From NCBI RefSeq assembly GCF_027923385.1, contig NZ_BSEC01000001.1, forward strand, positions 632,501 through 696,500: a stretch of 64,000 nt of DNA, written 5' to 3'. Position 1 is the first letter of the stretch. Each line of letters begins with the position of its first letter. The position numbers were made by a program, and so were the translations under genes. This stretch comes from Methylocystis echinoides (lineage in GTDB: Bacteria; Pseudomonadota; Alphaproteobacteria; Rhizobiales; Beijerinckiaceae). The notes under the pieces are model-generated. The model did not search any database, had not been told where the DNA came from, and saw nothing but the letters and a program-made list of their open reading frames with translations. Below are positions 5,709-30,132 of this stretch, piece by piece.

Positions 5709-8168
5709 ATGAAACAGGAAACGGTCTTTCAGGCCGCCGGCCGGCATTTGCGCAATGGCTGGATCATTCTCACGACGCGCGGCGCGGTTGCGCTGTTTGG
5801 CGCCGCCATGCGGGAGGCGGCGAAGCTCATCGATTCGCCTGTGGGGGTTTTTCTGCCGCCTGCGGAAATCCTGCGGCAGGGCCCGCAGTTCTGCCGCGCC
5901 TATGGCGCGCGGGCGACAATCGGCGCCGTGCTGCGCCAGCTTGCGGCGACATATGATCCGCCGCTCGGACTGCGCCGCAATCCCGTCAATGATCCGCTGC
6001 GCGCGCAGGCGGTCGGCTATCATTACACGCATGAGTTGATAAGAGCGGATGGCGTCGTGCCCTCGCGCCGTCCCGTCAATGAATCGGATTTCGCGCTGGC
6101 GACGCCCTTCGACTATCCGGCGCAGCCGTCGCATGCCGGTCCCATCGCCGCGATCGTGCATGTCTTCTATCCGGAGGTCCTCCCGCTCCTGCTCGAAAAG
6201 CTTGCGAATCTTCCTGGCGACGTGGATCTCTTCCTGTCGACCGACACGCCAGAAAAGGAAGGACGTATCGCTCAGGCCTGCGACGGCTGGCGCAAGGGGC
6301 GCGTCGAGACGCGCGTGCTGCCGAACCGGGGACGCGACATCGCGGCAAAATTCGTGGGCTTTCGTGACGTCTATGCGCGTTATGAACTCTTCGTTCATCT
6401 CCACGCCAAGCGGTCGCCGCATGGCGGCGCGGCGCTCGCGCGCTGGCGGGATTATCTCGTCGACACGCTTCTCGGCTCGCCGCGGATTGCAGGCGCCAAT
6501 CTCTCCTTGTTCGACGATCCCAGGGTCGGCGTCGTCTTCCCGCAGCATCTCTTCGAGCTGCGCGGCGTGCTCAACTGGGGTTATGATTACGATCTCGCCC
6601 GCGTTCTCATGAAACGCATGGGCGTCGCCATCGACAAGACTCTCACACTCGAGTTTCCATCGGGCTCGATGTTCTTCGGGCGCAGCGCCGCCTTTCGGCC
6701 GCTCCTCGATCTCGCGCTCGATTTTTCCGATTTCCCTGAAGAAGCCGGTCACGTCGACGGCACGCTCGCGCATGCCATCGAGCGTGTGCTGCTGATGGTC
6801 GCGGAATCGACAGGCTTCGAATGGCGCAAGGTGGCGCGGCGCGATCTCTACCCGATGCCGCACACCTTGCTCACCGTGCGGGAGCCGGACGATCTTCCCC
6901 TGCATCGGCTGAAAGTCTTTCGGCCCTGTCTTTCCCCTGTCGATGATGCGCCGCGTCCGCAGGAGAGAGGCCTGGCCGAACTCAGGCCGCTGCTTTCCTA
7001 TCCCTCGCGCAACTCGCGTCCGCGTCTCACGCTGCTGACCCCGACCGTCAATCCGCATCAGACCTTCGGCGGCGTCGCCACGGCGCTGCGGCTGTTCACG
7101 TCGCTCGCCGACGCGCTCGGCGACGACTGGGATCGGCGCATCGTCGCCACCGACGCCGACATCGAGCCGGCGGCCTACGAACGCTTTGCGGATTTCGAGC
7201 CGGCGCCCTATGCGGCGAGTCTCGATCAAGGGCGTCGCGTCATCGTCGACGCCTTCCAGCGCGAGGGCGGCCGACTCGATCTGCGCGCGAACGATATTTT
7301 CATCGCGACCGCCTGGTGGACGGCGATACTGGCGCGCGATCTCGAAAAGGATCGGGCGCGCTACTTTGACGGCACGCGGCCGCTCATCTACCTCGTTCAG
7401 GACGACGAGCCCTATTTCCAGGGCCGGGGCGCGCGCGCCGCATTCGCCGTCTCCACTTACCGCCCTCGCGGCGAGACCATCGCGCTGATCAATTCAGAAG
7501 AACTCTACCTGTCGATGCAAGCGAAATATGGTTTCGCCGAAAGCTGGTGCATCCCCTATGCGATCAACCCGCAAATCGACGCGGCGCTGCGCCCGGCGCC
7601 GCGCGAAAGACTGATGCTCGTCTATGGGCGACCACATGTCGAACGCAATGGATTCGAGCTGATCGTCGACGCCCTGTTTCGCTGGCAGCAACGAGACCCC
7701 ATTCGCGCCAGCCGATGGACGCTTCTGTTTCTCGGCGAGGGTTTTCCGGCGTCCTGGCTTTATCCCGTGCAGAATGCGCGCGTGCTCGGCAAGGCGAGTC
7801 TTGCGGATTATGCCGATCTCCTGAGCCGCGCCAGCGTCGGCGTGTCGCTGATGCTGTCGCCGCATCCGAGTTATCCGCCGTTGGAAATGGCGGAAGCCGG
7901 GCTTGTCGCCGTCACGAATGATTTCGAGGGACGCAGCCTGCGACGCCGTTTCGACGACGTCATGGCCGTCGAGGACGTCGACCCCCTCGCGCTCGCCGAA
8001 GCGATAGAGGCGGCTGTGGCGCGGGCGGAGCCGCTCATCGGCGCGATCACGCCGCGTCGACAGGGCAGGGCGCCGGCGCTCGATCCTGATGCAATATTCG
8101 ATGCCGGCGCGGTCGCTGCGCGCCTTCGGCGCCAGTTTACCGAGCCTTCTCGCGCAGGAGGCGCGTGA
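5709..8168 (+). CDS. Two-module glycosyltransferase: RgpF-like domain plus WsaF-like GT-B domain
   Basis: Large cytoplasmic enzyme of 819 residues. Roughly residues 130-410 resemble the rhamnan synthesis protein F (RgpF) family: AIVHVFYPEVLPLLLEKL, NRGRDIAAK, LHAKRSPH and a PSGSMFFGR segment. Residues from about 435 on resemble WsaF-type rhamnosyltransferases (GGVATALRLF, YLVQDDEPYF, YGRPHVERNGFE, SPHPSYPPLEMAEAG). It probably transfers rhamnose or a related sugar in surface polysaccharide assembly, in line with adjacent rfbD. The start at 5709 lacks a clear ribosome-binding site. It is divergent from the KpsT-like gene and its end overlaps rfbD convergently by 32 bases. The sugar specificity is inferred. 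Confidence 0.82.
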   Translation: MKQETVFQAAGRHLRNGWIILTTRGAVALFGAAMREAAKLIDSPVGVFLPPAEILRQGPQFCRAYGARATIGAVLRQLAATYDPPLGLRRNPVNDPLRAQAVGYHYTHELIRADGVVPSRRPVNESDFALATPFDYPAQPSHAGPIAAIVHVFYPEVLPLLLEKLANLPGDVDLFLSTDTPEKEGRIAQACDGWRKGRVETRVLPNRGRDIAAKFVGFRDVYARYELFVHLHAKRSPHGGAALARWRDYLVDTLLGSPRIAGANLSLFDDPRVGVVFPQHLFELRGVLNWGYDYDLARVLMKRMGVAIDKTLTLEFPSGSMFFGRSAAFRPLLDLALDFSDFPEEAGHVDGTLAHAIERVLLMVAESTGFEWRKVARRDLYPMPHTLLTVREPDDLPLHRLKVFRPCLSPVDDAPRPQERGLAELRPLLSYPSRNSRPRLTLLTPTVNPHQTFGGVATALRLFTSLADALGDDWDRRIVATDADIEPAAYERFADFEPAPYAASLDQGRRVIVDAFQREGGRLDLRANDIFIATAWWTAILARDLEKDRARYFDGTRPLIYLVQDDEPYFQGRGARAAFAVSTYRPRGETIALINSEELYLSMQAKYGFAESWCIPYAINPQIDAALRPAPRERLMLVYGRPHVERNGFELIVDALFRWQQRDPIRASRWTLLFLGEGFPASWLYPVQNARVLGKASLADYADLLSRASVGVSLMLSPHPSYPPLEMAEAGLVAVTNDFEGRSLRRRFDDVMAVEDVDPLALAEAIEAAVARAEPLIGAITPRRQGRAPALDPDAIFDAGAVAARLRRQFTEPSRAGGA

Positions 8169-9030
8169 CGCAGCCTTCCAGCGACTGGCGCCACGGCGGC
8201 AGGACGACGCCATAACGTTCGGCGAGCTTCGTATTGTCGAGTCGCGAATTGGCGGGGCGGCGCGCGGGCGTCGGATAATCCGCCGTGGCGATGCGCCGGA
8301 CGCGCACCGGCCTGCGTCCGCACTGCTCGGCGATCTCGAAGGTCGCTTCGGCCAGATCGGCCCAGCTCGCGTCGCCCTGACCCGTGAGATTGACCACGCC
8401 GCGCAGTGACGGCGCGGGGTCCTGCGTCAGGCGCCGGGCGATGACGAGCAGCGCGTCGGCGATGTCGAGCGCGTTGGTCGGATTGCCGAGCTGATCCGCG
8501 ACCACGCCCACTTCCTCCCGCGTCTCGCCGAGGCGCAGCATCGTCTTGACGAAATTGGCGCCGAAGGGGCTGTAGACCCATGCGGTGCGCAGAATTGCAT
8601 GGTTCGGGTGGATCCCCCGGATGTGTTCCTCGCCGGCGAGCTTGGAGCGGCCATAGGCGCTTGTCGGGCCGGTCGGATCGTCTTCCCGATAGGGCCGGTC
8701 GAGGGTTCCGTCGAAGACATAATCCGTGGAGAGATGCAGCAGCGGCGCATTCAGCTCCGCCGCGGCCTCCGCGACATGCGCCGCGCCGGCGCCATTGACG
8801 CGCATGGCGACCTCGGCCTCGCTTTCGGCCTTGTCGACGGCCGTATAGGCGGCGGCGTTGATGATCGCGTCGCAACGGGCGTGGCGCAGGCTGGCGAGAA
8901 CGGCGTTCCGCATGCCGAGGTCGAGCTGCGGACGCCCGAGCGCGGTGATTTCCACGTCTTTGCCGGCGCGCTCGATCAGCGCGCTCACGACCTGGCCGGT
9001 CAGGCCGGTGACGGCGAGACGGAGCGTCAT
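8137..9030 (-). CDS. rfbD: dTDP-4-dehydrorhamnose reductase
   Basis: Last step of dTDP-L-rhamnose synthesis: NADPH-dependent reduction of dTDP-4-dehydro-L-rhamnose. It is an extended SDR with a TGLTGQV nucleotide-binding loop near residue 8, a NAAAYTAVDKAE segment near 60, STDYVFDG near 102 and the catalytic YxxxK as YGRSK near 126. The length of 297 residues is normal. The other rfb genes (rfbA, B, C) are not in the window. It follows ugd on the same strand with an 84-base gap, so co-transcription is plausible. Confidence 0.93.
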   Translation of the reverse strand: MTLRLAVTGLTGQVVSALIERAGKDVEITALGRPQLDLGMRNAVLASLRHARCDAIINAAAYTAVDKAESEAEVAMRVNGAGAAHVAEAAAELNAPLLHLSTDYVFDGTLDRPYREDDPTGPTSAYGRSKLAGEEHIRGIHPNHAILRTAWVYSPFGANFVKTMLRLGETREEVGVVADQLGNPTNALDIADALLVIARRLTQDPAPSLRGVVNLTGQGDASWADLAEATFEIAEQCGRRPVRVRRIATADYPTPARRPANSRLDNTKLAERYGVVLPPWRQSLEGCVTRLLREKAR

Positions 9031-9114: not shown

Positions 9115-10419
9115 CTATTTGCGTCCGACGCTGATATAGGTGAAGCCGCGTTTGCGCAGATCGGCCGGACGATAGACATTGCGCAGATCGACGACGATCG
9201 GCTGCTTGAGCAGGCTCTTCACCCGATCGAGATCCAGCGCGCGGAACGCGTCCCATTCCGTGACGATCGCAACCGCCTCGGCGCCTTCCAGCGCCGCATA
9301 GGGATCGTCGTGGAAGGTCACTTCCGGCATCAGCGGGCGCGCCTGATCCATGCTCTCGGGATCATAGGCGTGGACCTGCGCGCCATCGCCCGCCAGCGAG
9401 GCGACGATGGCGAGCGAGGGCGCGTCGCGCATGTCGTCGGTGTTGGGCTTGAAGGCGAGGCCGAGCAGGGCGATCTTTTTGCCGCGCACCGAGCCGCCGA
9501 GCGCCACGATGATCTTGCGCGCCATGGCCCGCTTGCGGGCGTCGTTCACCGCCACCACGGTTTCGACGATGCGCAGGCTCGATCCTTCGTCCTGACCTGT
9601 CTTGATCAGCGCCAGCGTGTCCTTGGGAAAGCAGGAGCCGCCGTAGCCGGGCCCCGCGTGGAGGAACTTCCCGCCGATGCGCTTGTCGAGACCGATGCCG
9701 CGCGCGACCTCCTGAACGTCGGCGCCGACCTTCTCGCACAGATCGGCGATCTCGTTGATGAAGGTGATCTTGGTCGCGAGAAAGGCGTTGGCGGCGTATT
9801 TGGTGAGTTCCGAGGTGCGGCGGCCGACGAAGACCAGCGGCGGCGCATTGAGCGACAGCGGCCGGTAAATCTCCTCCATCACCTCGCGCGCGCGCGGCTC
9901 CTCGACCCCGATGACGACGCGGTCGGGCCGCTTGAAGTCCTCGATTGCCGCGCCTTCGCGCAGGAATTCGGGATTGGAGACAACCGCGAAATCGGCCTTC
10001 GGATTCGCCTCGCGGATGATCCGCTCGACCTCGTCGCCCGTGCCGACCGGCACGGTGGACTTGTTGACGACGACGGTGAAGCCCTCCAGCGCGCCGGCGA
10101 TGGTCTTGGCGGCGGCATAGACATAGGAGAGATCGGCGTGACCGTCGCCGCGGCGCGAGGGGGTGCCGACGGCGATGAAGACCGCGTCGGCGCCCTTCAC
10201 CGCGGGCGCGAGATCGGTGGTGAAGGACAGGCGGTTCTGCTTGACGTTATTGGCGACAAGCTCGTCCAGGCCCGGCTCGTAGATCGGAATCTCTCCACGC
10301 TTCAGACGCGCGATCTTGCTCTCGTCTGAATCGACGCAAATCACGTCGTGACCGAAATCGGCAAAGCAAGCGCCGGAAACAAGGCCCACATAGCCGGAGC
10401 CGATCATCGTGATTTTCAT
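9115..10419 (-). CDS. ugd: UDP-glucose 6-dehydrogenase
   Basis: Oxidises UDP-glucose to UDP-glucuronate with two NAD+, providing acidic sugar for surface polysaccharides. The N-terminal Rossmann motif is GSGYVG at residues 7-12, the central helix carries the usual ELTKYAANAFLA segment, and the catalytic cysteine lies in GGSCFPKD near residue 262. The C-terminal UDP-binding domain is complete. Length of 434 residues is typical. The ATG at 10419 is preceded by AGGAGGAA at a 9-base spacing. It heads a probable ugd-rfbD unit on the minus strand. Confidence 0.95.
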   Translation of the reverse strand: MKITMIGSGYVGLVSGACFADFGHDVICVDSDESKIARLKRGEIPIYEPGLDELVANNVKQNRLSFTTDLAPAVKGADAVFIAVGTPSRRGDGHADLSYVYAAAKTIAGALEGFTVVVNKSTVPVGTGDEVERIIREANPKADFAVVSNPEFLREGAAIEDFKRPDRVVIGVEEPRAREVMEEIYRPLSLNAPPLVFVGRRTSELTKYAANAFLATKITFINEIADLCEKVGADVQEVARGIGLDKRIGGKFLHAGPGYGGSCFPKDTLALIKTGQDEGSSLRIVETVVAVNDARKRAMARKIIVALGGSVRGKKIALLGLAFKPNTDDMRDAPSLAIVASLAGDGAQVHAYDPESMDQARPLMPEVTFHDDPYAALEGAEAVAIVTEWDAFRALDLDRVKSLLKQPIVVDLRNVYRPADLRKRGFTYISVGRK

Positions 10420-12214: not shown

Positions 12215-13363
12215 TCAGGCGGGATCGACGAAAAAGGCCGGCGGCGTCGCGCCCTCGGCAATCATCGTCAACAGGCGCTGCGACGCCGTCAGCGCCTCGC
12301 CGATGGTCACATCCATGTCGAGATAGCGATAGGTTCCAAGCCGGCCCATGAAACTGACGCCGGGCGTGGCGCGCGCCAGCGCGATGTAATCCCGCAGAAG
12401 CTTCTGCTCCTCCGCCAGGCGGATCGGATAATAGGGGATGTCGTCAGGCCCGCAGGCGCGGCTGGTTTCCCGATAGCAGATCGTCCGGTCGAACGCGTCC
12501 TTCTCCCAGGGCGCGAAATGCTTGTGTTCGGTGATGCGGGTGAAGGGCGTGTCGGCGTCGCAGTAATTGAGGACGGCGGTTCCCTGATAATCGCCCTCGG
12601 CATGGAATTTCTCGAAATCGAGCGTGCGATAATTGAGCCTGCCGAGGCGGTAGTCGAAATAGCGGTCCAGCGGCCCACTATAGAAGACATGCGCAAAGGG
12701 CTCGCCAAGCGCCTCGAAACCCTGCGCGAGTCGCAGGTCGACATTCGGCGCGTCGAGAATGGACGCGACCATCGCGCTGTAGCCGTCCTTCGGCATGCCC
12801 TGATAACGATGCGCGAAATAGCTGTCGTCGTAGGTGAAGCGCAGCGGCAGGCGCTTGAGGATCGAGGCCGGCAATCGGGTCGGCGACATGCCCCATTGCT
12901 TGCGCGTATAGCCCTCGAAAAAAGCCTCGTACAGCTCGCGGCCGATCATCGCCAGCGCCTGTTCCTCGAAATTGCGCGGCGCCTCGCAAGGGCGGGTCTT
13001 CGATCGAATGAACGCCTGCGCTTCGCTGGGGCTCATCGTCATGCCGAAGAACTGGTTGATTGTCAGCAGATTGACCGGCAGCGCATAGACGCGCCCGCGC
13101 GCAACCGCCTGCACGCGGTGCGCATAAGGCGCCATGGCGCAGAAGCGCTGCACATAGGCCCAGACGCTTTCATCGGACGTGTGAAAAATATGCGGCCCGT
13201 AGAGATGCTCCATGATTCCCGTCGCGGGATCGCGCGCCGTGGCGCAATTTCCGCCGATGCGCGCGCGCTCGTCCACGACGACGACGCTGTGACCAGCTTC
13301 GCCCAGCGCCCGGGCGACGACGGCGCCGCTCAGTCCTGCTCCGACCACACAATAGCGCGCCAA
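12215..13363 (-). CDS. glf: UDP-galactopyranose mutase
   Basis: Flavoenzyme that interconverts UDP-galactopyranose and UDP-galactofuranose for surface glycans. The FAD-binding motif VVGAGLSG lies at residues 6-13, followed by an acidic strand end (VVVVDER) and GGNCA. The YGPHIFHT, FFEGYTRKQWG and YFDYRLGRLNYRTLDFE segments are characteristic of the family, with active-site arginines in the later part. I chose the TTG at 13363 because it is preceded by GGAGGGAC at good spacing and places the Rossmann motif at the very N-terminus; a frame open to 13510 adds an unlikely leader. Length is 382 residues. It suggests galactofuranose in the cell envelope. Confidence 0.92.
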   Translation of the reverse strand: MARYCVVGAGLSGAVVARALGEAGHSVVVVDERARIGGNCATARDPATGIMEHLYGPHIFHTSDESVWAYVQRFCAMAPYAHRVQAVARGRVYALPVNLLTINQFFGMTMSPSEAQAFIRSKTRPCEAPRNFEEQALAMIGRELYEAFFEGYTRKQWGMSPTRLPASILKRLPLRFTYDDSYFAHRYQGMPKDGYSAMVASILDAPNVDLRLAQGFEALGEPFAHVFYSGPLDRYFDYRLGRLNYRTLDFEKFHAEGDYQGTAVLNYCDADTPFTRITEHKHFAPWEKDAFDRTICYRETSRACGPDDIPYYPIRLAEEQKLLRDYIALARATPGVSFMGRLGTYRYLDMDVTIGEALTASQRLLTMIAEGATPPAFFVDPA

Positions 13364-13850
13364 GCGACGTCCCTCCGCAGTTCTGCCGCGGCAAAAGAAA
13401 CGCGGCTTTAACCGAGATGACGACGCCAAGCTGTCGCGAAGCTGATCAGCGTTTTGGATAAGACAAACGCCAGCAGGCAAGTAGACATTCAACGCGACAA
13501 TTCTATTCATTTGCAGCGTGCAATTGGCAGCAGGATTTAAGTCTCCGTTAAGTCGCCCGGCTTAAAACAGCTGCTACCGAACCGCTTTCCCATTAGTGGA
13601 TAAGCCCTCGTGTTGGCCGGGCAGATGAGCTGCCCCATTCGGTCTGGCGTCGCCTCGCGGAACCAATCCCGCGTGGCCCAAGCCAGGACGCCGATCCGCA
13701 CGACGATGTCTCCTTCAAACCGCAACAGCCTGGCGTAGCGCCGCTCTCTTGCATGAGCGCGCGCGTCGGGTCCGATCGAGCGCTTTCTGCCGGCTGTGTC
13801 CGCAGGCGCCCGCACGCCGCAACGAGCAGAGATTTCTCAGGGGCCGTCCC
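13364..13850. other. Divergent intergenic region upstream of the octad-repeat gene
   Basis: About 490 bases between glf and the repeat-protein gene, containing the start regions of both. The part near 13480-13600 is AT-richer than the surroundings and is the likely promoter zone. A minus-strand frame (13537-13815) could encode some 90 residues, but it has no clear ribosome-binding site and no family I recognise, so I did not call it a gene. No RNA gene or hairpin terminator stands out. Confidence 0.35.
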
Positions 13851-16800
13851 ATGACTTCGATCATCGCCTCACTTACCGCCAAGCAGATCGCGCTGCTGTC
13901 GACCGACACCGTTTCCAAGCTGACGACCAGCGATATCGCCGCGATGAAGACATCGCAGATCGCCGCGCTGTCGTCGACGCAGTTGAGCGTGATGACGACG
14001 GAAGACGTCAGCGCCTTCACGACGACGCAGTTTTCGGCCATCGCGGCCAATGCGATCGCCGGTCTCAACAGCGTGCACATCAGCAATCTGACGACGTCCG
14101 AAGTCAGCGCGCTGTCCTCCGCCCAGCTGGCCAAGATCGTCGCTTCCTACATCGACGATTTCACCACCGACCAGATCGCCGCGCTCTCCACCGCACAGGT
14201 CGCCGCCCTGTCGTCGACACAGGCGGCGGCCATCGAAACCGCCGACATCGCCGTCATGTCGAGCGCGCAAGTTGCGGCGCTCAGTTCGAAGAGCGTCTCC
14301 GCGCTTTCGACGGATCAGATCGCGGCGATGACCACCGACGCGGTCGCGGCGCTGACGACGACGCAGGTGAAGGCGCTCACCTCCGCGCAGCTCGGCGCGC
14401 TGTCGACCGACCAGGCGGCGGCGCTCACCACGGCGCAGATCGGCACGCTGTCCTCCACGCAGATCGGGGGTCTCACGACTGACAGCATCGCGGCGCTTTC
14501 CACCGGTCAGACGTCGGCCATCGCGGCCAAATCCGTCGCCGGCCTGCGCACCGCGCAAATCGTCACCCTCTCCACCGATCAGGCTGCGGCGCTGACGACC
14601 GCGCAGGTCGCCGCGCTCACGTCGACGCAGGCGGCGGCGCTCGAGACCGAGGATCTCGCCGCCTTCACGACGACACAGTTCGCCGCCCTCACCAGCAAGG
14701 ACATTGCGGTCCTCACGACCGATCAGATCGCCGCCATCGAGACAGCCGATCTCGCCGTGTTGTCGAGCGCGCAGATTGGCGCGCTCGGCACGGCGCAGAT
14801 CGCCGTTCTGTCGACCGATCAGACTGCGGCGCTGACGACCGCGCAGATCGGCGCGCTTTCCTCCAAGCAGGTCGGCGCGCTGACGACGACGACTGTCGCC
14901 GCCTTGTCGACGGATCAGGTTTCGGCCCTGCGCACCAGCGCTCTCGCCGGCCTCACCACGGCGCAGATCGGTGTGATCTCCACCGAACAGGCGGCGGCGC
15001 TGACCACGGCGCAGATCGCGACGCTCTCGACAAGCCAGGCGGCGGCGCTGACGACCGACGACATCGTCGCGCTGTCGACGGCCCAGTTCGCCGCGATGAA
15101 CGCCAAGGACGTGGCCGCGCTCATCACCTCGCAGGTTGCGGTGATGGAAACGGCGGACCTCGCCGCGCTGTCGACCACGCAGGTCGCCGCGATGACCGCG
15201 TCGCAGCTCAGCCATCTCTCGACCGATCAGGCGGCGGCGCTCACCACCGCGCAGGTCGCGGTGCTGTCCTCCTCGCAGGCGGCGGCGCTCACCACTGACG
15301 CCATTGCGGCCATGTCGACGGCGCAGATCGCCGCCATCAGCACCAAGTCTGTCTCGTCGCTGACGACGGCGCAGGTCGCCGCGCTGACGACCGATCAGGC
15401 GGCGGCGCTGACCACCTCGCAGGTCGCTGCGCTCACCACGAAGCAGGCCGCCGCGATCGAAACCGCCGATCTCGCCGCCCTGTCGACCTCTCAGGTCGCG
15501 GCGATGACGAGCAAGGACGTTGGCGCGCTGACGACCGATCAGATTGTCGCCATGGAAACGGCCGATCTCGCCGTTCTCTCCACCGGCCAGATCAGCGCGC
15601 TCGGCACGGCTCAGGTCCGCGCGCTCACCACCGATCAGGCTGCGACGCTCACGACGACACAGCTCGCCGCCTTCTCGTCCAAGCAGCTCGGCGCGCTGAC
15701 GACAGAAGACATCGGCGCCCTGTCGACCGATCAGGTTGCGGCGCTCAGCTCGAAGGCTGTCGCCGGTCTCACGACCGCGCAGGTCGCGAGCTTCTCGACC
15801 GATCAGATTGCGGCGATGACGACGGCGCAGATCGCCGCCTTCTCCTCGACGCAGGCTGCGGCCATTGAGACCGACGACATTGTCGCGCTCTCCACCGCCC
15901 AGACCGCCGCCCTGTCCTCGAAGAGCATCGGCGCGCTGACGACCAGTCAGGTCGCCGCCATGGAGACGGCGGATCTCGCCGTGCTGTCGACGGCGCAGGT
16001 TGGCGCCCTCTCCACCGCGCAGATCGGCGCGCTGTCGACCGATCAGGCGGCGGCGATGACGACGACGCAGATTGCGGCTTTCACCTCGAAGCAGCTCGGC
16101 GCGCTCAAGACGGATGACCTCGCGGCGCTGTCGACCGGTCAGGTCGCGGCGATCAGCACCAAGGCCATCGCCGGCCTCACGACCGCGCAGGTCGCGAGCC
16201 TGTCGACGGATCATGTCGCCGCGCTGTCGACCGGGCAGATCGCCGCGCTCTCCTCGACACAGGCCGCGGCCATCGAGACCGATGACATTGTCGCGCTCGC
16301 GACGGATCAGATCGCCGCGCTCTCCTCCAAGGGCGTCGCGGTGCTGACGACGGCTCAGGTCGTCGCCATCGAGACGGCGGACCTCGCCGCCATGACCACC
16401 GCGCAGATCGGCGCGATGAACACAGCGCAGCTTTCCAAACTCTCGACGGATCAGGCCGCCGCCCTGACGACGGCGCAGGTCGCGACCCTGTCGTCGAAAC
16501 AGCTCGGCGCGCTCACGACCGACGCCGTGGCGGCGCTGTCCACCGCGCAGATCACGGCCGTCGGCACGGCCGCCGTGGCTGGCCTGACGACCGCGCAACT
16601 CGGCGCCGTGTCGACGGATCAGGCGGCGGCGCTGACGACCGCGCAGATCGGCGGGCTGACGACGGATGACGTCGCGGCGCTGTCGACCGCCCAGGTCGCC
16701 GCGATCTCCACCAAGGCCTTCTCGTCGCTGACGACCGCCCAGATCGTCGCCATCACCACCGATCAGGTGGCGGCGCTGACCACGGGCCAGATCGCCACGC

Positions 16801-18647
16801 TGACGACGGCTCAGGCCAATGCAATCGAGACGGAGGATCTCGCCGCCTTCTCGACGACGCAGATCGTCTCCTTGTCGACCAAGGATCTCGCGGCGCTCTC
16901 GGCCATGCAGATCCTTGCGCTGGAGACCGCTGACGCGGCGGCGCTGACGACCTCTCAGATCGCCGCGCTGAAATCGGATCAGGTCGCCTCCTTGACGACG
17001 GATCAGATCACCGCGCTGTCCACGACGCAGATTGCAACGCTCTCCTCGACCCAGCTCAGCGCCGTGACGACGGAGGATCTTGCCACCATGTCGACCGCGC
17101 AGGTCGCGGCGCTGTCGACAAGAGCCATCGCCGGCCTGACCAGCGATCAGCTGGTCACGCTCTCCACCGATCAGGCGGCGGCGCTGACCACGGCGCAGGT
17201 CGCGACGCTCTCCTCGTCGCAGGCCGCCGCCATCGAGACCACGGATCTCGCGGCGCTGTCCACGGCGCAGGTCGCCGCCTTCAGCAGCCGCAGCGTCGCC
17301 GCGCTGTCGACCGATCAGGTCGCGGCCTTGACGACGACTGAAGTGGCCGCGCTGACCACGGTCCAGATCGGCGCGCTGACGACGTCGCAGATCGCCACGC
17401 TCTCGACCGATCAGGCGGCGGCGCTGACGACCGCGCAGGTCAACGCCTTCTCGTCGACCCAGGTCGGCGCGATGACGACCGACAGCATCGCCGCGCTCTC
17501 CATCGATCAGGTGGCCGCGGTGAAGGTCGCCGCCCTGTCCGGCCTCTCGACCGGCCAGGTGGATGCGCTGTCGACCGACCAGTCCGCGGCGCTCGGGACG
17601 GCGCAGGTCGCCGCCCTCTCGTCGCAGCAGGCGGGGGCGCTCGGCACGGATGAACTTGCCGTGCTGTCGACCGCCCAGATCGCCGCGTTCAGCTCGAGGG
17701 CGATCCCGGGCCTGACCACGGACCAGATCGGCGCGCTGACCACCAATCAGGCCGCCGCCCTGACCACCACGCAGGTCGCCGCCCTGTCCACCAGCCAGGC
17801 GGCCGCGATCGAAACGGACGACCTTGCGGTCCTGTCCACGTCGCAGCTTGTCGCCCTGACGACGGCGGCGGTCGGCGCGCTGACGACCGACCAGGTCGCC
17901 GCGATGACGACGACCGAGGTTGCGGGGCTGAGCACGCGCCAGATCGGCGCGCTGACCACCGATCAGATCGCGGCTCTGTCGACGGATCAGGCGACGGCGC
18001 TGACCACGGCCCAGATCGCCACCCTGTCCTCGCGGCAGGCCGGCGCCCTGACGACGGACGATGTCGCCGCGCTGTCCACCGGCCAGATCGCCGCCCTGAC
18101 CTCGGGCGCCGTCACCGGCCTGACGACGGATCAGGTCGCGGCGATTACGACCGATCAGGCTGCGGCGCTGACGACCGCCCAGATCGGCGTCCTGTCCACC
18201 TCCCAGGCGCAGGCCCTGGAGACGGACGACCTCGCCGCCCTGTCGACGGGCCAGTTCGCCGCCCTCACCTCGGCGGACATTGCGGCCCTGCTGACGACGC
18301 AGGTTGCGGCGATCACGACCGATCAGGCCGTGGCGTTTACCACCGCTCAGGCGGCGGCGCTGACGTCCGACCAGATCGCCGCCTTCTCGACGGCGCAGTC
18401 CGCCGCGCTGGAGACGGCCGACATCGCCGTCCTGTCCTCGACGCAGATCCGCGCGCTGGAGACAGACGACTTCGCCGCGCTGACCTCGACGCAGCTCGGC
18501 GCCATCGGCACCTCGGCGCTCTCTGGGCTGACGACCGACGACATCGGCGCCTTAAGCACCGCGCAAGCTGACGGGTTTACGTCCTCTCAGTATCAGGCGC
18601 TCAACGGCGACATTCTGAACGCGCTGTTCAAGCTCTACAACGGCTGA
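13851..18647 (+). CDS. Giant Ser/Thr-rich octapeptide-repeat protein (199 octads)
   Basis: The product has 1598 residues. From residue 7 to the last residue it is a continuous series of 199 eight-residue units, consensus A-L-S/T-T-x-Q-V/I-A, with no insertion or deletion of register. Position 2 is hydrophobic (L, M, I or F), positions 3 and 4 are mostly Ser/Thr, 6 is Q or D, 7 is V/I/A/L and 8 is A or G. A 17-octad (136-residue) super-repeat is laid over this. There is no signal peptide, no transmembrane helix, and almost no aromatic residue or cysteine. The ATG at 13851 opens directly into the repeat. I do not know its function; similar octad proteins are usually labelled beta-strand-repeat or adhesin-like. 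Two glycosyltransferase genes follow on the same strand, so a glycosylated surface or secreted protein is my inference. Confidence 0.9.
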   Translation: MTSIIASLTAKQIALLSTDTVSKLTTSDIAAMKTSQIAALSSTQLSVMTTEDVSAFTTTQFSAIAANAIAGLNSVHISNLTTSEVSALSSAQLAKIVASYIDDFTTDQIAALSTAQVAALSSTQAAAIETADIAVMSSAQVAALSSKSVSALSTDQIAAMTTDAVAALTTTQVKALTSAQLGALSTDQAAALTTAQIGTLSSTQIGGLTTDSIAALSTGQTSAIAAKSVAGLRTAQIVTLSTDQAAALTTAQVAALTSTQAAALETEDLAAFTTTQFAALTSKDIAVLTTDQIAAIETADLAVLSSAQIGALGTAQIAVLSTDQTAALTTAQIGALSSKQVGALTTTTVAALSTDQVSALRTSALAGLTTAQIGVISTEQAAALTTAQIATLSTSQAAALTTDDIVALSTAQFAAMNAKDVAALITSQVAVMETADLAALSTTQVAAMTASQLSHLSTDQAAALTTAQVAVLSSSQAAALTTDAIAAMSTAQIAAISTKSVSSLTTAQVAALTTDQAAALTTSQVAALTTKQAAAIETADLAALSTSQVAAMTSKDVGALTTDQIVAMETADLAVLSTGQISALGTAQVRALTTDQAATLTTTQLAAFSSKQLGALTTEDIGALSTDQVAALSSKAVAGLTTAQVASFSTDQIAAMTTAQIAAFSSTQAAAIETDDIVALSTAQTAALSSKSIGALTTSQVAAMETADLAVLSTAQVGALSTAQIGALSTDQAAAMTTTQIAAFTSKQLGALKTDDLAALSTGQVAAISTKAIAGLTTAQVASLSTDHVAALSTGQIAALSSTQAAAIETDDIVALATDQIAALSSKGVAVLTTAQVVAIETADLAAMTTAQIGAMNTAQLSKLSTDQAAALTTAQVATLSSKQLGALTTDAVAALSTAQITAVGTAAVAGLTTAQLGAVSTDQAAALTTAQIGGLTTDDVAALSTAQVAAISTKAFSSLTTAQIVAITTDQVAALTTGQIATLTTAQANAIETEDLAAFSTTQIVSLSTKDLAALSAMQILALETADAAALTTSQIAALKSDQVASLTTDQITALSTTQIATLSSTQLSAVTTEDLATMSTAQVAALSTRAIAGLTSDQLVTLSTDQAAALTTAQVATLSSSQAAAIETTDLAALSTAQVAAFSSRSVAALSTDQVAALTTTEVAALTTVQIGALTTSQIATLSTDQAAALTTAQVNAFSSTQVGAMTTDSIAALSIDQVAAVKVAALSGLSTGQVDALSTDQSAALGTAQVAALSSQQAGALGTDELAVLSTAQIAAFSSRAIPGLTTDQIGALTTNQAAALTTTQVAALSTSQAAAIETDDLAVLSTSQLVALTTAAVGALTTDQVAAMTTTEVAGLSTRQIGALTTDQIAALSTDQATALTTAQIATLSSRQAGALTTDDVAALSTGQIAALTSGAVTGLTTDQVAAITTDQAAALTTAQIGVLSTSQAQALETDDLAALSTGQFAALTSADIAALLTTQVAAITTDQAVAFTTAQAAALTSDQIAAFSTAQSAALETADIAVLSSTQIRALETDDFAALTSTQLGAIGTSALSGLTTDDIGALSTAQADGFTSSQYQALNGDILNALFKLYNG
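13869..18644 (+). repeat. 24-bp coding tandem repeats with a 408-bp higher-order period
   Basis: The whole stretch is a tandem array of 24-bp units with each leucine-type codon at a coordinate divisible by 24. The marker unit encoding L-S/T-T-D/E-Q-A/T-A-A recurs at about 14400, 14568, 14808, 14976, 15216, 15384 and 15624, that is at alternating steps of 168 and 240 bp (7 and 10 units). The 408-bp sum is a 17-unit super-repeat, which persists to about 16600. Around 16850-17160 the order is disturbed, then the 168/240 steps resume. This is coding repeat, not a CRISPR array. Confidence 0.92.
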
Positions 18648-18756: not shown

Positions 18757-20799
18757 ATGCTTGCGCCCGTAACGTCGCCCGAGGCCATCGCGCAATATTT
18801 CTCGCAGGAAACACAGAAGGGTCGAGCGGGCCAGCAGACTCTGGCCGATCTGTTCGGCGCGGCGGATACGCTCGCTTCCGCCAATCAGCTGCGCCTCGCC
18901 GCCGAACTCTACCGCAACTGGATCGCGTTCAACATGAGCGATCCGCTGGCCCATATGGCCTATTTCAATCTCGCCGTGCTGCTGCGCCGTCTCGATGATT
19001 TCCCCGGCGCCATCAATGCGCTCGTGGAATGCGCGCGGCTGAAGCCCGAATTCCATCAGGCGCGCATCAATCTCGGCCGCGTCTTCGAGGACGCCGGTCA
19101 CATCCCGCGCGCGCTCGAGCAATGGAATCAGGCGGTCGCGGGACTTTCCGGCGTCAGCGCGGAAACGCAGAAACTGAAACTCCTCGCCCTCCAGCAAAGC
19201 GGCCGCGTGCTCGAAGCCGCCGAGCGATTCGAGGCGGCGGAGAACCTGCTGAAACAGGCGATCGACCTGCGCCCCGATCTCCCCGAATCCGCGCAGCACT
19301 GGATCGCGCTGCGTCAGCGCCAGTGCAAATGGCCGGTGCTGTCGCCGTCCGAATATGTGACGCGGCGTCAGCTGCTCGACGCCATGTCGCCGATCTCGCT
19401 CGCGCTGCACGCCGACGATCCGCTGTTTCAGCTCGGCAGAGCCTGTCGCTACAACCGCAATCTCGTCGGGCGACCGGCGCCGGTCGCGGCCGCCGCCTCC
19501 CCGGAGGCGGCGGCCCGCCAGCCCAACGAAAGACTGCGCATCGGATATGTTTCATCCGATCTGCGCGAACATGCGGTCGGCTTCGCGCTGGTCGAAGTCT
19601 TCGAATTGCACGACAGATCGGCATTTGAAATCTTCGCCTATTCCTTCGGCGCGGACCGGCCGGCGGACGCGACACAGGCGCGTTTCAAGGCGGCGGTCGA
19701 TCACTGGAGCGACGTCAGCGCACAGGACGACGATCATGTGGCGCAGGAAATCGCCGAGGACGGAATCGACATTCTGGTTGATCTCAATGGCTACACGAAG
19801 AATGCGCGCGCCGGCATTTTCGCGCGCCGGCCCGCGCCGGTTATCGTCAACTGGTGCGGCTATCCCGGAACGATGGGCAGCGCCTATCATCATTATCTCA
19901 TCGCCGACGCGCATATCGTTCCCCCCGGAAGCGAGATTTTCTATTCCGAGAAAGTGCTGCGCCTCGCCTGCAATCAGCCGCTCGACCGCAAGCGGCGGAT
20001 CGATCACGGCGCTCTGACGCGCGCTGACGAAGGATTGCCGGAGGACTCTTTTGTCTTCTGCTGTCTCAACGGCATGCAGAAAATCACGCCGGAGGTGTTC
20101 GCGCTCTGGCTGCGCATCCTGCAAGACACGCCTGGCTCGGTGCTGTGGCTGCTGTCGGGCGGGGCGGATGTCGACGAGCGGCTGCGTCAGCTCGCGCGCG
20201 CGGATGGCGTCGACGGCGAGCGCCTGCTCTTTGCGCAGAAACGGCCCAATGCGCTGCATCTCGCCCGCATGTCGCTCGCCGATCTCTTCCTCGACACTTT
20301 CCCTTACGGCGCCCATTCCACGGCCGCCGACGCGCTGACCGCCGGCGTGCCGGTGCTGACCCGCCCCGGCCGCAGTTTCGCGTCGCGCTTCTGCGCGAGC
20401 GTCGTGCGCGCCGCCGGACTCGACGATTTCATCTGCGAGACGGTCGACGATTATGTGCGCAAGGCCGTGACCATCGCCTCCGATCCCCGCATCATCCGTC
20501 ATTACCGTCACAAGCTCGCCGCGCATCGCGACAAAAGCGTGCTGCGCGACATGAACGCCACGGCCCGGCGGCTGGAGGAACTTTATCTCGACATGCAGGC
20601 CGCCCGCGACGCGGACGCCCTGCCTGTTCCCGAGCTCGTCAATCTCGACGCCTATTACGAAATCGGCGCCGCGCTCGACGCCGAACAGGCGTGTTTCGCC
20701 GACGATGCAAGCTACTTCGCCGCCTGGCAGACGAAGCTTGTCGAATGGAACAGGCACACGCCGCTTTCACCCGACTCGCGTCTATGGCGCCGGCCGTAA
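18757..20799 (+). CDS. TPR-containing O-GlcNAc-transferase-type glycosyltransferase (GT41)
   Basis: A protein of 680 residues with an N-terminal tetratricopeptide region (about 25-190, with repeats such as AYFNLAVLLRRLDDFPGAINALVECARLKP) and a C-terminal GT41/SPINDLY catalytic region from about 255. Conserved catalytic-region landmarks are GYVSSDLREHAVGF near 263, NWCGYPGTMGS near 365, a lysine in CCLNGMQKI near 442 and HSTAADALTAGVPVLT near 519. Family members add N-acetylglucosamine or related sugars to Ser/Thr of proteins in the cytoplasm; the TPRs bind the substrate. The ATG at 18757 has GAGGGA upstream; an earlier ATG at 18676 is possible. It lies 109 bases after the Ser/Thr-rich octad protein, its most obvious candidate substrate (inference). 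Confidence 0.9.
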   Translation: MLAPVTSPEAIAQYFSQETQKGRAGQQTLADLFGAADTLASANQLRLAAELYRNWIAFNMSDPLAHMAYFNLAVLLRRLDDFPGAINALVECARLKPEFHQARINLGRVFEDAGHIPRALEQWNQAVAGLSGVSAETQKLKLLALQQSGRVLEAAERFEAAENLLKQAIDLRPDLPESAQHWIALRQRQCKWPVLSPSEYVTRRQLLDAMSPISLALHADDPLFQLGRACRYNRNLVGRPAPVAAAASPEAAARQPNERLRIGYVSSDLREHAVGFALVEVFELHDRSAFEIFAYSFGADRPADATQARFKAAVDHWSDVSAQDDDHVAQEIAEDGIDILVDLNGYTKNARAGIFARRPAPVIVNWCGYPGTMGSAYHHYLIADAHIVPPGSEIFYSEKVLRLACNQPLDRKRRIDHGALTRADEGLPEDSFVFCCLNGMQKITPEVFALWLRILQDTPGSVLWLLSGGADVDERLRQLARADGVDGERLLFAQKRPNALHLARMSLADLFLDTFPYGAHSTAADALTAGVPVLTRPGRSFASRFCASVVRAAGLDDFICETVDDYVRKAVTIASDPRIIRHYRHKLAAHRDKSVLRDMNATARRLEELYLDMQAARDADALPVPELVNLDAYYEIGAALDAEQACFADDASYFAAWQTKLVEWNRHTPLSPDSRLWRRP

Positions 20800-20823
20800 G
20801 GCGCGCAATCAGAGGAATATCGG

Positions 20824-22209
20824 ATGCTGAACGATTTCGCCGCGCGCCGGCCCCGTACGATCCTGCTGACTTTCGCGGGCCGCCGCGATCACATGACGCT
20901 TCTGACCTATTATGTCGAGCGCGCGATCGAACTCGGCCTCATCGACGAATGGCATGTGTGGGACTTCACGCGCAACGCCGCGGATCGCGAGTGGCTGCGC
21001 CAGCGCTTTCCGGTGACGCAGACGACGCCGAGCAATTCCTTCGACTACTTCCCCCATGCGCGCCGCCTCGCGCTTGGGGAGAAGCGCGCCGCCTTGCGCT
21101 TTTCGGTCGCGTCGCGCAGCGACGTGCATCTCGGCCTGCGCCGGCTGGACGGCTCGGGACAAAGCTATGAGATCGTCGTCGGCGGCTGGAGCAATCAGGC
21201 CAGCGCGCTGCGGGCGTTCGACGACGCGGCGTCCCTCGTCGACGTCTCCGCGCGCGATCCGCTGGCGCAGCCGCTCGCCATCGCCGCGACGCCGGACATC
21301 CTGCCCGAATTCGGTTTCGCCAATGTCGAGGCCAGTTTTGGCAAGGACGACCTCGCCGTCTTCGTTCAGGGACGCGAGGCCCTGCGCGTCCAATTGCCGA
21401 TCGCGCCGGGAACCTTCGAGCTGCTGTACCGCACCGGTTACGGGTCGAACGGCGAATGGATTTTCCCCGAAACCGAAGAGACGGCTGCGCGGCTCTTCGT
21501 GAGAGGACCGACAACGGATTATCCGCCCGGCGCGATGTTCTACAACAGCGCCTATCAATATTACGGCGCAAATCTCGATCGCTACCAAAACGACATTTTC
21601 CTCAAATGCGACGATGACGTCGTCTTCTTCGATCTCGACCGCCTCGCTGAATTCGTCGACTTCCGCCGCCGCAACACCGGCTATTTCCTGCTCAGCGCCA
21701 ATGTCGTCAACAATGGCGTCTGCGCCTATTTCCAGCAGGCAAGCGGCGCCATTCCGGCCGGCTTCGATGTGTTCGAAATGCCCAAGGGCGGCATGTGCGG
21801 TTCGCTCTGGGGGAGCGGCGCAAAGGCGCAGCGACTGCACGAGCTGTTCCTCAAGAACCCCGCGGCCTTCCGCGACGCCGCGCGCGCGCCCATCTGCTGG
21901 CTCGAGCGGGTGAGCATCAATTTCGTCTCCTGGCTCGGCGCCGATTTGATGCATATTCCGGACATCATGGCGGATGACGAGCATGACCTTTGTTATGGCG
22001 TCAGGAAACGCGCCAGAAAGGTGAACGCCATCTATCCGCGGTTTCTTGCCTCGCATCTCTCCTTCTGGAAGCAGGATGCGGATATGGACATCGAGCGAAT
22101 CCTCGCAGGTTATCGCGCGCTGGCCGATCGCGAGCTGCATGTCGTGCGCCGCTCGCGTGTGGAATCCCCCGCCGAGGAGGCGGAGCCGTCCATATCTTTG
22201 AGCGCCTGA
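20824..22209 (+). CDS. GT-A-type glycosyltransferase with inserted PF12248-like domain
   Basis: A protein of 461 residues. The N-terminal part (RTILLTFAGRRDHMTLLTYYVERAI) and the central KCDDDVVFFDLDRL segment (acidic triad at 263-265) look like a GT-A fold with a metal-binding DxD motif. Between them, about residues 90-225, lies a different module; the run YEIVVGGWSNQASALR near 115 strongly resembles the so-called farnesoic acid O-methyltransferase domain (PF12248), a beta-sandwich fold that may bind carbohydrate. So the glycosyltransferase seems to be split by, or built around, a possible carbohydrate-binding insert. It starts 24 bases after the GT41 gene and is probably co-transcribed with it. 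The acceptor and donor are unknown. Confidence 0.75.
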   Translation: MLNDFAARRPRTILLTFAGRRDHMTLLTYYVERAIELGLIDEWHVWDFTRNAADREWLRQRFPVTQTTPSNSFDYFPHARRLALGEKRAALRFSVASRSDVHLGLRRLDGSGQSYEIVVGGWSNQASALRAFDDAASLVDVSARDPLAQPLAIAATPDILPEFGFANVEASFGKDDLAVFVQGREALRVQLPIAPGTFELLYRTGYGSNGEWIFPETEETAARLFVRGPTTDYPPGAMFYNSAYQYYGANLDRYQNDIFLKCDDDVVFFDLDRLAEFVDFRRRNTGYFLLSANVVNNGVCAYFQQASGAIPAGFDVFEMPKGGMCGSLWGSGAKAQRLHELFLKNPAAFRDAARAPICWLERVSINFVSWLGADLMHIPDIMADDEHDLCYGVRKRARKVNAIYPRFLASHLSFWKQDADMDIERILAGYRALADRELHVVRRSRVESPAEEAEPSISLSA

Positions 22210-22270
22210 GTGAAACCTGCGGCCGCCGCCCGCGTTAAGGCGCCGGGTGCTGCGAGCGCAGGAGCAAGCC

Positions 22271-22693
22271 ATGCTGAAGCTACCTGAACTGAACCGGCAT
22301 ATTGTCGGGCTGTCAGCCATCGCGCTGGCGATCGCAGGCGTAGGTTACGCCGCGCGTGTGACGCCGATGAATTCGGGCGCGCCGGCGGCGCAACAACTGG
22401 CGGAGCTTCTGCCGGCGGAGGGCTGGAATCCGGCCGCCATGCTGAGGGAGATTCCGCCCAACGCCTTTGGTCGCGCGCCAGCCGCCGAGCAGGAAATGAC
22501 GCCACAAAACGCGGAGGCCAACTCTATTTCTCCCGACTCGAAGAACTGGACCGCGCAGGATTGGCGTGTGGCCGCCGCGGCGGTCGAAAAATTGCGGTCG
22601 TCGCGGCCTCAGGCCCGCAACAACATGAGCGGAGTCGTCTGGGCGCCGCCGGAGGAGATCGCGCAGAAAACCGCGCGGGGCTCCATGCGCTGA
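22271..22693 (+). CDS. Hypothetical membrane-anchored protein
   Basis: A protein of 140 residues. After a short polar N-terminus there is one hydrophobic helix (IVGLSAIALAIAGVGYAA, about residues 11-28), then a polar, alanine/proline-rich remainder predicted to be outside the membrane. I recognise no family. The ATG at 22271 has AGGAGC upstream. It is the last gene of the repeat-protein/glycosyltransferase group and is followed by a hairpin. A signal anchor in a cluster that may handle an exported protein is suggestive only. Confidence 0.6.
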   Translation: MLKLPELNRHIVGLSAIALAIAGVGYAARVTPMNSGAPAAQQLAELLPAEGWNPAAMLREIPPNAFGRAPAAEQEMTPQNAEANSISPDSKNWTAQDWRVAAAAVEKLRSSRPQARNNMSGVVWAPPEEIAQKTARGSMR

Positions 22694-28123: not shown

Positions 28124-28891
28124 ATGAGCTCGACGACTAGCGCTGCTGCTGGCGCCGCTACGGAAACAGCCGTAGTCGACCTGCGCGGCATGTGGATTGG
28201 CCTTGCCGTCCTGAACGTTTTCTATCTGATCGTTCGCATCTACGAGCAGATCTATGGCTGGCGCGCCGGCCTGGACTCGTTCGCCCCTGAGTTCCAGACG
28301 TATTGGATGTCGATCCTGTGGACCGAGATCCCGCTGGAGCTCGTCTCCGGTCTTGGCCTCGCCGGCTATCTCTGGAAGACCCGCGACCGCAACGTCGACG
28401 CGGTTTCGCCGCGTGAAGAGATGCGCCGTCTCGTTGTCCTGGTTCAGTGGCTTGTCGTTTACGGCATCGCCATTTACTGGGGCGCTTCGTTCTTCACGGA
28501 GCAGGACGGCACCTGGCACATGACGGTGATTCGCGACACGGACTTCACGCCGTCGCACATCATCGAGTTCTACATGAGCTACCCGATCTATTCGGTTATC
28601 GCGGTTGGCGCGTTCTTCTATGCGAAGACCCGCATTCCGTATTTTGCTCATGGCTACTCGCTGGCGTTCCTGATCGTCGCCATCGGCCCGTTCATGATCA
28701 TCCCGAACGTTGGCCTGAATGAGTGGGGCCACACCTTCTGGTTCATGGAAGAGCTGTTCGTTGCGCCGCTGCACTGGGGCTTCGTGTTCTTCGGCTGGAT
28801 GGCTCTCGGCGTGTTCGGCGTCGTGCTGCAGATCCTGGCTCGCATCCATGCCCTGATCGGCAAGGAAGGCGTCGCCCTCCTGACCGAGTAA
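28124..28891 (+). CDS. pmoC: Particulate methane monooxygenase subunit C
   Basis: Membrane subunit of the copper enzyme that oxidises methane to methanol in intracytoplasmic membranes. The product has 255 residues, with several transmembrane helices. The conserved metal ligands of the PmoC site are visible as D128, H132 and H145 (in QDGTWH and FTPSH), one less than the numbering published for Methylocystis sp. M. The ATG at 28124 follows AGGAGGAG. Codon choice is richer in T-ending codons than in neighbouring genes, as in very highly expressed genes. It is first of pmoCAB. Confidence 0.98.
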   Translation: MSSTTSAAAGAATETAVVDLRGMWIGLAVLNVFYLIVRIYEQIYGWRAGLDSFAPEFQTYWMSILWTEIPLELVSGLGLAGYLWKTRDRNVDAVSPREEMRRLVVLVQWLVVYGIAIYWGASFFTEQDGTWHMTVIRDTDFTPSHIIEFYMSYPIYSVIAVGAFFYAKTRIPYFAHGYSLAFLIVAIGPFMIIPNVGLNEWGHTFWFMEELFVAPLHWGFVFFGWMALGVFGVVLQILARIHALIGKEGVALLTE

Positions 28892-29216
28892 TTCGGACGC
28901 AGGGTTTGCTCGCGCCTTCGGGCGCGAGCATCTGGTCCGAGCGGGATTTTCGCTAAACCAAGAGACATTTCGGCTTGATCGAACTTTCCGCGCGAGCGGG
29001 GGGAAGAGGGCTTTGATGTCGCGGCCCGGGCAAACCCGGGTTGGTAGGGGAAGGTTTCGCGGCGCTTCGTTTGAAGCGATTGCGCAAGAGAAAACCGGGC
29101 GCGAGGGCGAGAAGCTTTCGGGTTCGGGCGTGGGTCCGGAACGCAGGCGTTTCGGACGTGCGACAAAAGAAAGCTCGGAGCCTTAAGGCTTCCGGGAATC
29201 ACCAAGGAGAAGAGTG
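28892..29216 (+). other. Long pmoC-pmoA intercistronic spacer
   Basis: The 325 bases contain the UUCG hairpin after pmoC, a second small palindrome (CCCGGGCAAACCCGGG, about 29026-29041), and an AAGGAGA ribosome-binding site before pmoA. No open frame with support was seen. Spacers of this size between pmoC and pmoA are known in type II methanotrophs and are consistent with mRNA processing. Confidence 0.5.
28907..28930 (+). promoter_or_regulatory. UUCG-tetraloop hairpin downstream of pmoC
   Basis: A perfect 10-bp stem, TGCTCGCGCC pairing with GGCGCGAGCA, is closed by the extra-stable C(UUCG)G tetraloop and sits 16 bases after the pmoC stop. No T-run follows, so it is unlikely to be a full terminator. 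It could protect the pmoC 3' end or attenuate transcription into pmoAB. Confidence 0.7.
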
Positions 29217-30107: not shown

Positions 30108-30132
30108 GAAGGGAAACCTGGGAGGTTTGTTC

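Follow-up and report, generated by a model that had tools for sequence, protein, structure and literature searches.

A 64,000-nucleotide stretch of the Methylocystis echinoides genome (contig NZ_BSEC01000001.1; hereafter the window, by which we mean the full stretch, with coordinates given as window positions) encodes a 1,598-residue protein built of octapeptide repeats, and the next gene encodes a GT41 enzyme resembling O-GlcNAc transferases (OGTs). What is such a protein, and what might the enzyme have to do with it? The answer that we consider probable is that a cytosolic OGT adds sugar to octad position 4 and that the chain, once exported, builds a glycosylated rod of screw-like shape on the cell surface. 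The two genes are the following.

13851..18647, + strand: octad-repeat protein with the ALTTAQ repeat (PF20080), 1,598 amino acids, 199 octads (Pfam, AlphaFold2).
18757..20799, + strand: TPR and GT41 O-GlcNAc-transferase-like protein, 680 amino acids, beginning 109 bp after the array stop; array-associated clade.

Translation of the open reading frame (ORF) at 13851-18647 (+) gave 1,598 residues followed by a stop codon. Residues 7 to 1598 form exactly 199 octads in a single register; the initial annotation had described the protein as 199 units free of insertions or deletions, and one phase was indeed found throughout. Of the 199 octads, 186 satisfy all four of a set of simple position criteria, 11 satisfy three, and 2 fewer (the last three octads of the array are among those that fail). 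The combination of a hydrophobic residue at position 2, a hydrophobic residue or Ala at position 7, and Ser/Thr at position 4 occurs in 182 of the 199 octads, compared to 20 or fewer in 1,000 residue shuffles. Position 2 is L in 143 octads, I in 20, M in 18, F in 14, and V in 4; Q occupies position 6 in 134, and Ser/Thr occupies position 4 in 188. The array holds 176 distinct octads and 198 distinct 24-mers and is therefore not a recent DNA expansion. The ATG start at 13851 is backed by relatives that open in the same register, several of them with MTSI; an in-frame TTG lies upstream at 13749. A database search had been proposed earlier as a check; in Pfam, the octad is a named repeat, PF20080 (ALTTAQ), which matches the protein with 1,201.8 bits against a cutoff of 26.4, in 56 stretches. 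Among the matches listed for the host genome, 13851-18647 is the one gene with this repeat.

The octad had been read as a unit of a solenoid of ultra-short helices, each with a capping box, with a beta-solenoid as the rival, and structure prediction was the suggested way to decide. We modeled two segments with AlphaFold2, the first 328 residues with an alignment of 16 rows and the last 321 residues with one of 11 rows. The mean predicted local distance difference test (pLDDT) scores were 96.4 and 96.2, respectively, with predicted template modeling (pTM) scores of 0.87 and 0.86. Both models contain one short helix per octad, most of them 4 to 6 residues long, and neither contains a beta strand. 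Predicted helices begin mostly at octad position 4, which gives the position-3 Ser/Thr the role of N-cap. Thus, the models side with the ultra-short helices and the capping box and not with the beta-solenoid. They likewise bear on the idea that the protein is a beta-solenoid of the ice-nucleation or ice-binding type, for which one can point to Cereibacter sphaeroides homologues annotated as "ICE nucleation protein." Both models have a helix per octad and lack strands, and the Pfam matches, taken up to an E value of 1, include no ice-nucleation family; we regard this idea as very improbable.

Among solved structures, the best sequence match was the 120-residue HeliScrew4 chain (PDB 9zem; E = 1.5e-17), and a profile match of the array to this chain reached 5.6e-30. 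HeliScrew4, which we compared by name and aligned sequence alone, is taken on that basis to be a designed protein; it shares the octad pattern of the window protein but is much shorter than the array and richer in Pro and Glu. It was absent from the Foldseek matches listed, where the top rows were mesothelin (E = 4.5e-4 to 8.6e-4; template modeling [TM] scores of 0.24 to 0.44). The best Foldseek likeness was to a mesothelin-type superhelix of short helices, with low scores. The mesothelin family PF06060 is tagged on three octad proteins among the matches listed, near the cutoff in two and not found in the third, and it is not among the Pfam matches of the window protein up to an E value of 1. 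The repeat family is thus known, as is the fold, judging by the HeliScrew name, and the fold predicted for the window protein appears well supported by computation.

If each octad is a helix, how are the helices wound? Octad-to-octad identity within the array peaks at lags 7, 10, 17, 24, 27, 34, 41, 44, and 51, which are rounded multiples of 3.4 octads. After parts that were nonrepeat or out of register had been trimmed (as was also done for the charge analysis below), a Fourier peak at 0.2915 to 0.2998 per octad was present in 19 of 19 arrays, a set that omits two short fragments, and each peak exceeded the maximum of 200 octad shuffles. This peak was not always the strongest; other strong peaks lay near harmonics of the same frequency. 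In 11 of 13 later arrays, the peak within the band 0.285 to 0.303 exceeded 100 shuffles, the exceptions being L072 (marginal) and L080 (here and below, L and G numbers denote loci and genomes). The 19 plasmid arrays peaked in band at 0.2930 to 0.2969, and this was the strongest peak of all in 11 of them (no shuffle control was applied to this set). The dominant duplication lag, on the other hand, varied: 17 octads in three arrays, 24 in L070, L074, and L077, 31 and 7 in the two L075 arrays, 14 in L067 and L079, 48 in L072, 22 in L080, and 10 in L081. Since the period stays constant while the duplication unit ranges from lag 7 to lag 48, the best explanation would be that one turn of the structure takes about 3.4 octads, or 27 residues. 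The 199 octads would then make about 58 turns. Packed helices usually stack about 0.95 nm apart, and at this spacing per turn the rod would measure about 55 nm from end to end. The pitch of a natural array is thus readable from its sequence alone.

We then placed the octads on the 3.4-octad screw and measured the direction of charged residues at position 5. In the window array, both acidic (D/E, n = 59, R = 0.66) and basic (K/R, n = 23, R = 0.84) residues cluster, in directions 151 degrees apart. Of 29 arrays examined, the first 10 of which were chosen, four (L070, L104, L111, and L112) were short of one or both classes; in all 25 with at least 8 residues of each, the two directions lie 129 to 177 degrees apart. 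The P values for clustering are Rayleigh approximations with no shuffle control, and given shared ancestry and near copies (L105 and L108), the 25 arrays do not amount to 25 independent events. The opposed stripes suggest that rods pack side by side into fibers or a coat.

The product of 18757-20799 matches PF13844 with 251.3 bits (cutoff, 25) and has TPR matches above the cutoff. Among solved structures, XcOGT (2jlb) was the best match at 264 bits, followed by human OGT (3pe3) at 232 bits, compared to about 21 bits for N-glycosyltransferases and HMW1C-like enzymes. The enzyme shares the TPR and GT41 architecture of both OGTs, and in the alignment it keeps the columns of XcOGT His218 and Lys388, which we take to be the catalytic residues. 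Unlike these two OGTs, it belongs to a separate clade that adjoins arrays in a 55-sequence tree (four rows of which are weak matches; an earlier version had 35 rows). Twenty-two rows form this clade with support of 100/100, and the remaining 33 fall outside. In many loci, a relative of the enzyme is found near an array, at distances from 27 bp to 5.3 kb, and 17 of the 22 clade rows are within 5.3 kb of an array. Two more are from G074, where the contig was predicted to terminate in an array and did; another (L048) is an estimated 10 kb or so from the L028 array, with a type I exporter between; and the last two (L046 and L055) are on contigs other than those of their arrays, linked by synteny only, through the same exporter neighbors. 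The array-linked clade spans alpha- and gammaproteobacteria, and in Cereibacter sphaeroides 2.4.1 array and OGT stand side by side.

The association also held when searches began from the enzyme. With GT41 as the starting point, genes that had at first looked unlinked in G069, G073, and G076 proved to adjoin a second array, and in G074 an array was likewise found alongside. GT41 proteins at an E value of 1e-40 or better occur in 111 of 386 genomes of the host's class, whereas window-like ones above 600 bits occur in 4 (the host and three others), all of which are among the 6 array genomes; the next-best GT41 protein in the class scored 374 bits. That search scored up to 3 candidates per genome, and the array searches scored about 20. 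Plasmid records with GT41 relatives numbered 66, of which 60 were listed, and those with arrays numbered 57, every one of them listed. Twenty-six of the 60 listed GT41 records also hold an array, including the top 14 of the ranking, in two of which the best GT41 and array matches are 8 to 9 kb apart. These 26 include 11 strains of one species, and the Niveispirillum record probably duplicates G232. Among the matches listed, no array was found in the Azospirillum plasmid records, the largest GT41 group. Taken together, these counts make a partnership between array and GT41 enzyme appear well supported on computational grounds. Separately, we noted two long open frames near arrays: a 1,538-amino-acid frame with two GT41 domains in G678 (L123:1988-6601) and a 1,649-amino-acid frame with weak GT41-like similarity (L035:5502-10448), both outside the clade. 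Opposite-strand ORFs in the window (e.g., 19552-20757 and 20809-22320) had no Pfam match and were taken as shadow ORFs.

Which residue would such an enzyme modify? Octads were called without use of positions 3 to 5, and an array was scored as linked when a GT41 gene lay within its fetched flanks. The fraction of Ser/Thr at position 4 had a median of 0.85 (0.57 to 0.99) in 18 linked arrays versus 0.36 (0.20 to 1.00) in 11 that were not linked (P = 0.0013). Positions 3 (P = 0.53) and 5 (P = 0.72) did not differ, and position 8 differed in the opposite direction (P = 0.04). Plasmid arrays gave the same picture at position 4 (0.78 to 0.96 for 10 linked versus 0.43 to 0.83 for 9 not linked; P = 0.004) but not at position 3 (P = 0.97). 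Within single genomes, linked versus unlinked values were 0.88 and 0.26 in G069, 0.99 and 0.36 in G073, 0.75 and 0.24 in G076, 0.96 and 0.30 in G232, and 0.96 and 0.20 in G318; G258 was a tie (0.66 to 0.71 versus 0.64). Overall, all 28 linked arrays have at least 0.57 Ser/Thr at position 4, and all 11 arrays below 0.57 are unlinked. Eight of 36 nonwindow arrays were left out, five for short flanks (L025, L027, L032, L033, and L082) and three as fragments of counted arrays (L052, L053, and L076), and the array of G202 fell short of the calling threshold. Two assignments were debatable. L028 was scored as not linked despite the clade enzyme an estimated 10 kb away, and moving it to the linked group gave P = 0.0007. 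L035 was scored as linked through a weak, out-of-clade GT41-like ORF, and dropping it gave P = 0.0016; elsewhere in its genome, the clade pair adjoins an array at the opposite end. From these contrasts, we infer that octad position 4 is the acceptor. In the window array, the position-4 Ser/Thr residues are evenly distributed around the screw (R = 0.02), and there is a single N-x-S/T sequon.

The mechanism that we propose is as follows. Each octad would be one very short helix, capped by the Ser/Thr at position 3 and starting with position 4, and at about 3.4 octads per turn the chain would wind into a one-domain screw rod of some 58 turns. The cytosolic TPR-GT41 partner would modify the position-4 Ser/Thr, roughly one site per octad and all around the rod, and the neighboring 461-amino-acid protein and UDP-galactopyranose mutase, described below, would probably assist in extending the sugar. 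Export would proceed without an N-terminal signal, through a type I system if the locus includes one, and the glycosylated rod would come to lie at the cell surface, where its charge stripes could give rise to fibers or a coat.

A number of observations weigh against this reading. AlphaFold2 confidence on repeats can be inflated, and Foldseek with the model gave weak PDB matches only. The position-4 contrast weakens when averaged by lineage (10 versus 8; P = 0.036), and its independence is limited in that the low rhizobial arrays may be one paralogue family. Arrays with no GT41 gene in the fetched flanks can also be high at position 4 (L080, 1.00; L028, 0.83; L074, 0.64), as are the unlinked plasmid arrays L118, L119, L120, and L122 (0.79 to 0.83). 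G567 and G769 have Ser/Thr-rich arrays, but their GT41 genes fall outside the clade. Weak GT41-like genes outside the clade lie near arrays in L035 and L077, and in G678 an out-of-clade double-GT41 ORF is separated from the array by about 11 kb; such neighbors slightly lower our confidence. Flagellin genes stand beside the array-GT41 locus of Pseudorhizobium flavum (L110:2126-4146), and flagellar export genes stand beside that of Rhodovastum atsumiense (L112:1-3723). Finally, the window has no match to PF00664 (ABC_membrane).

Several of these points would fit an unglycosylated helical-screw adhesin or surface rod, with the GT41 enzyme acting elsewhere, e.g., on flagellin, and its linkage to the array being historical. 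Many arrays have no GT41 gene nearby, flagellar or flagellin genes adjoin the two loci just named, and there is a precedent in Caulobacter, where FlmG is reported to be a cytosolic O-glycosyltransferase of flagellins whose modification is tied to export. FlmG resembles the window system in being a cytosolic O-glycosyltransferase with a substrate-binding N-terminal domain and differs in its substrate, flagellin rather than an octad screw whose relatives have type I secretion genes. However, the linked GT41 enzymes are one clade that accompanies arrays across alpha- and gammaproteobacteria, other annotated plasmid GT41 loci have no flagellar gene, and the Ser/Thr enrichment is confined to octad position 4. 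We therefore consider the unglycosylated rod unlikely and retain glycosylation by the neighboring OGT as the favored reading.

Is the protein exported at all? The initial annotation had expected a structural or surface protein exported by a signal-less route. In support of this, genes for an ATP-binding cassette (ABC) exporter and for HlyD are found close to arrays in L026, L028, L033, L070, L077, L080, L081, and G074. In L026 and L033, HlyD scores above the cutoff of the type I HlyD model; for the ABC proteins, type I models score best yet below their cutoffs. In C. sphaeroides (L104), an annotated ABC exporter and HlyD stand alongside the array with the OGT between, and the annotation of the Pseudomonas locus L111 places a type I permease/ATPase close to the array, alone in the stretch covered. 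Among 120 homologues listed, arrays co-occur with Big_5 Ig-like domains and with accessions that we take to be RTX, two-partner-secretion, and autotransporter domains. Locally, no exporter was found: the window gave no match to the array-linked ABC or HlyD proteins. The host genome has seven PF00664 matches outside the window, and the one of these that was compared (L044) has an HlyD neighbor and is 38.5% identical to an array-linked exporter, so that this ABC/HlyD pair could possibly serve the window protein in trans. The pair lies in G000:C1:3145000-3169900 (L044, L066, and L040), about 15 kb from an out-of-clade GT41 paralogue. Pfam gave no RTX match in the window protein; a short C-terminal end is conserved among relatives and is not a recognized secretion signal. 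As a side observation, P0098, P0105, and P0107, from Neisseriaceae, Buttiauxella, and Sphaerotilus, combine arrays with C2 (calpain-type) peptidase domains.

These findings also speak to the alternative of a nonexported intracellular scaffold or spacer. Inspection by eye shows neither a signal peptide nor a membrane anchor, the window yielded no type I exporter gene, and the repeat is sporadic even inside the genus, occurring in 3 of 37 genomes (host included); it occurs in 1 of 24 others of the order. On the other side are the exporter genes that adjoin arrays in relatives and the related arrays in proteins bearing domains of secreted proteins. We judge a scaffold or spacer to be quite unlikely, and a surface role with export lacking an N-terminal signal to be plausible. 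Octad arrays were found in 6 of 386 genomes of the host's class (with two different queries) and, at a strict threshold, in 4 of 370 genomes of the class to which one gammaproteobacterial relative belongs, a count that takes in the relative itself. Far outside this proteobacterial range, a distant array match (21.5%) was found on a plasmid of a Spiroplasma endosymbiont (CP117533.1:13462-16245).

What kind of sugar might be attached? The genes around the pair in the window are these.

20824..22209, + strand: PF12248-domain protein with a DDD stretch, 461 amino acids; homologues in array/GT41 loci.
12215..13510, - strand: UDP-galactopyranose mutase (GLF), divergent neighbor; homologues in array/GT41 loci.
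5709..8168, + strand: RgpF/WsaF-type glycosyltransferase; surface-glycan context, outside the conserved module.
8137-9030, - strand: RmlD-like reductase; nucleotide-sugar gene.
9115-10419, - strand: UDP-glucose dehydrogenase; nucleotide-sugar gene.

Homologues of the 461-amino-acid protein, a putative second glycosyltransferase or glycan-binding enzyme, occur in six array/GT41 loci (L018, L019, L060, L062, L109, and L110), and those of the mutase occur in nine (L018, L019, L024, L060, L062, L106, L109, L110, and L113). Their recurrence in rhizobial array/GT41 loci suggests that the glycan contains galactofuranose. In the loci compared, the RgpF/WsaF-type glycosyltransferase had no match, and of the two nucleotide-sugar genes only the UDP-glucose dehydrogenase matched elsewhere, in L018. 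On its left, the glycan cluster is bordered by a transposase gene (Mu-transpos_C_2, rve; 1188-2720, - strand). In Cereibacter, two sulfotransferase genes are annotated close to the module of array, OGT, and exporter (L104:16033-17907), and the glycan may be sulfated. Elsewhere in the window, a PF02461 gene (ammonia/methane monooxygenase family; 29214-29975, + strand) suggests that the host is a methanotroph; together with the ORFs at 28124-28891 and 30127-31392, it would fit a pmoCAB layout.

In the open-access literature, we found no paper on the octad repeat, on a GT41/octad-array partnership, or on HeliScrew, ALTTAQ, or PF20080. PF20080 names the repeat; to this the present analysis adds the pitch, the charge stripes, the GT41 partner, and a predicted acceptor position, none of which turned up in the open-access papers searched. 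Compared to the initial annotation, the gains are the known Pfam family, the 3.4-octad period, and a putative partner O-glycosyltransferase as the next gene. What is new is the combination of an octad screw, its pitch, its opposed charge faces, and a partner OGT clade with a predicted acceptor. With its hundreds of octads, the array is a naturally occurring example of a fold that this analysis otherwise met as a short PDB chain. GT41 genes are common in the class, but to our knowledge few bacterial GT41 enzymes have a known substrate; here, the clade arrives with a likely substrate next to it, in which each octad has one predicted acceptor position. A more far-reaching reading, which we consider less likely than not, is a new class of bacterial surface glycoprotein: a genetically tiled screw in which almost all octads would bear an O-linked sugar, always at the same position. 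The sugars would be attached by the partner OGT clade, with its TPR superhelix reading the repeat, and opposite charge stripes would zip the rods together side by side. If true, this would be a bacterial counterpart of mucin with near-crystalline sugar spacing.
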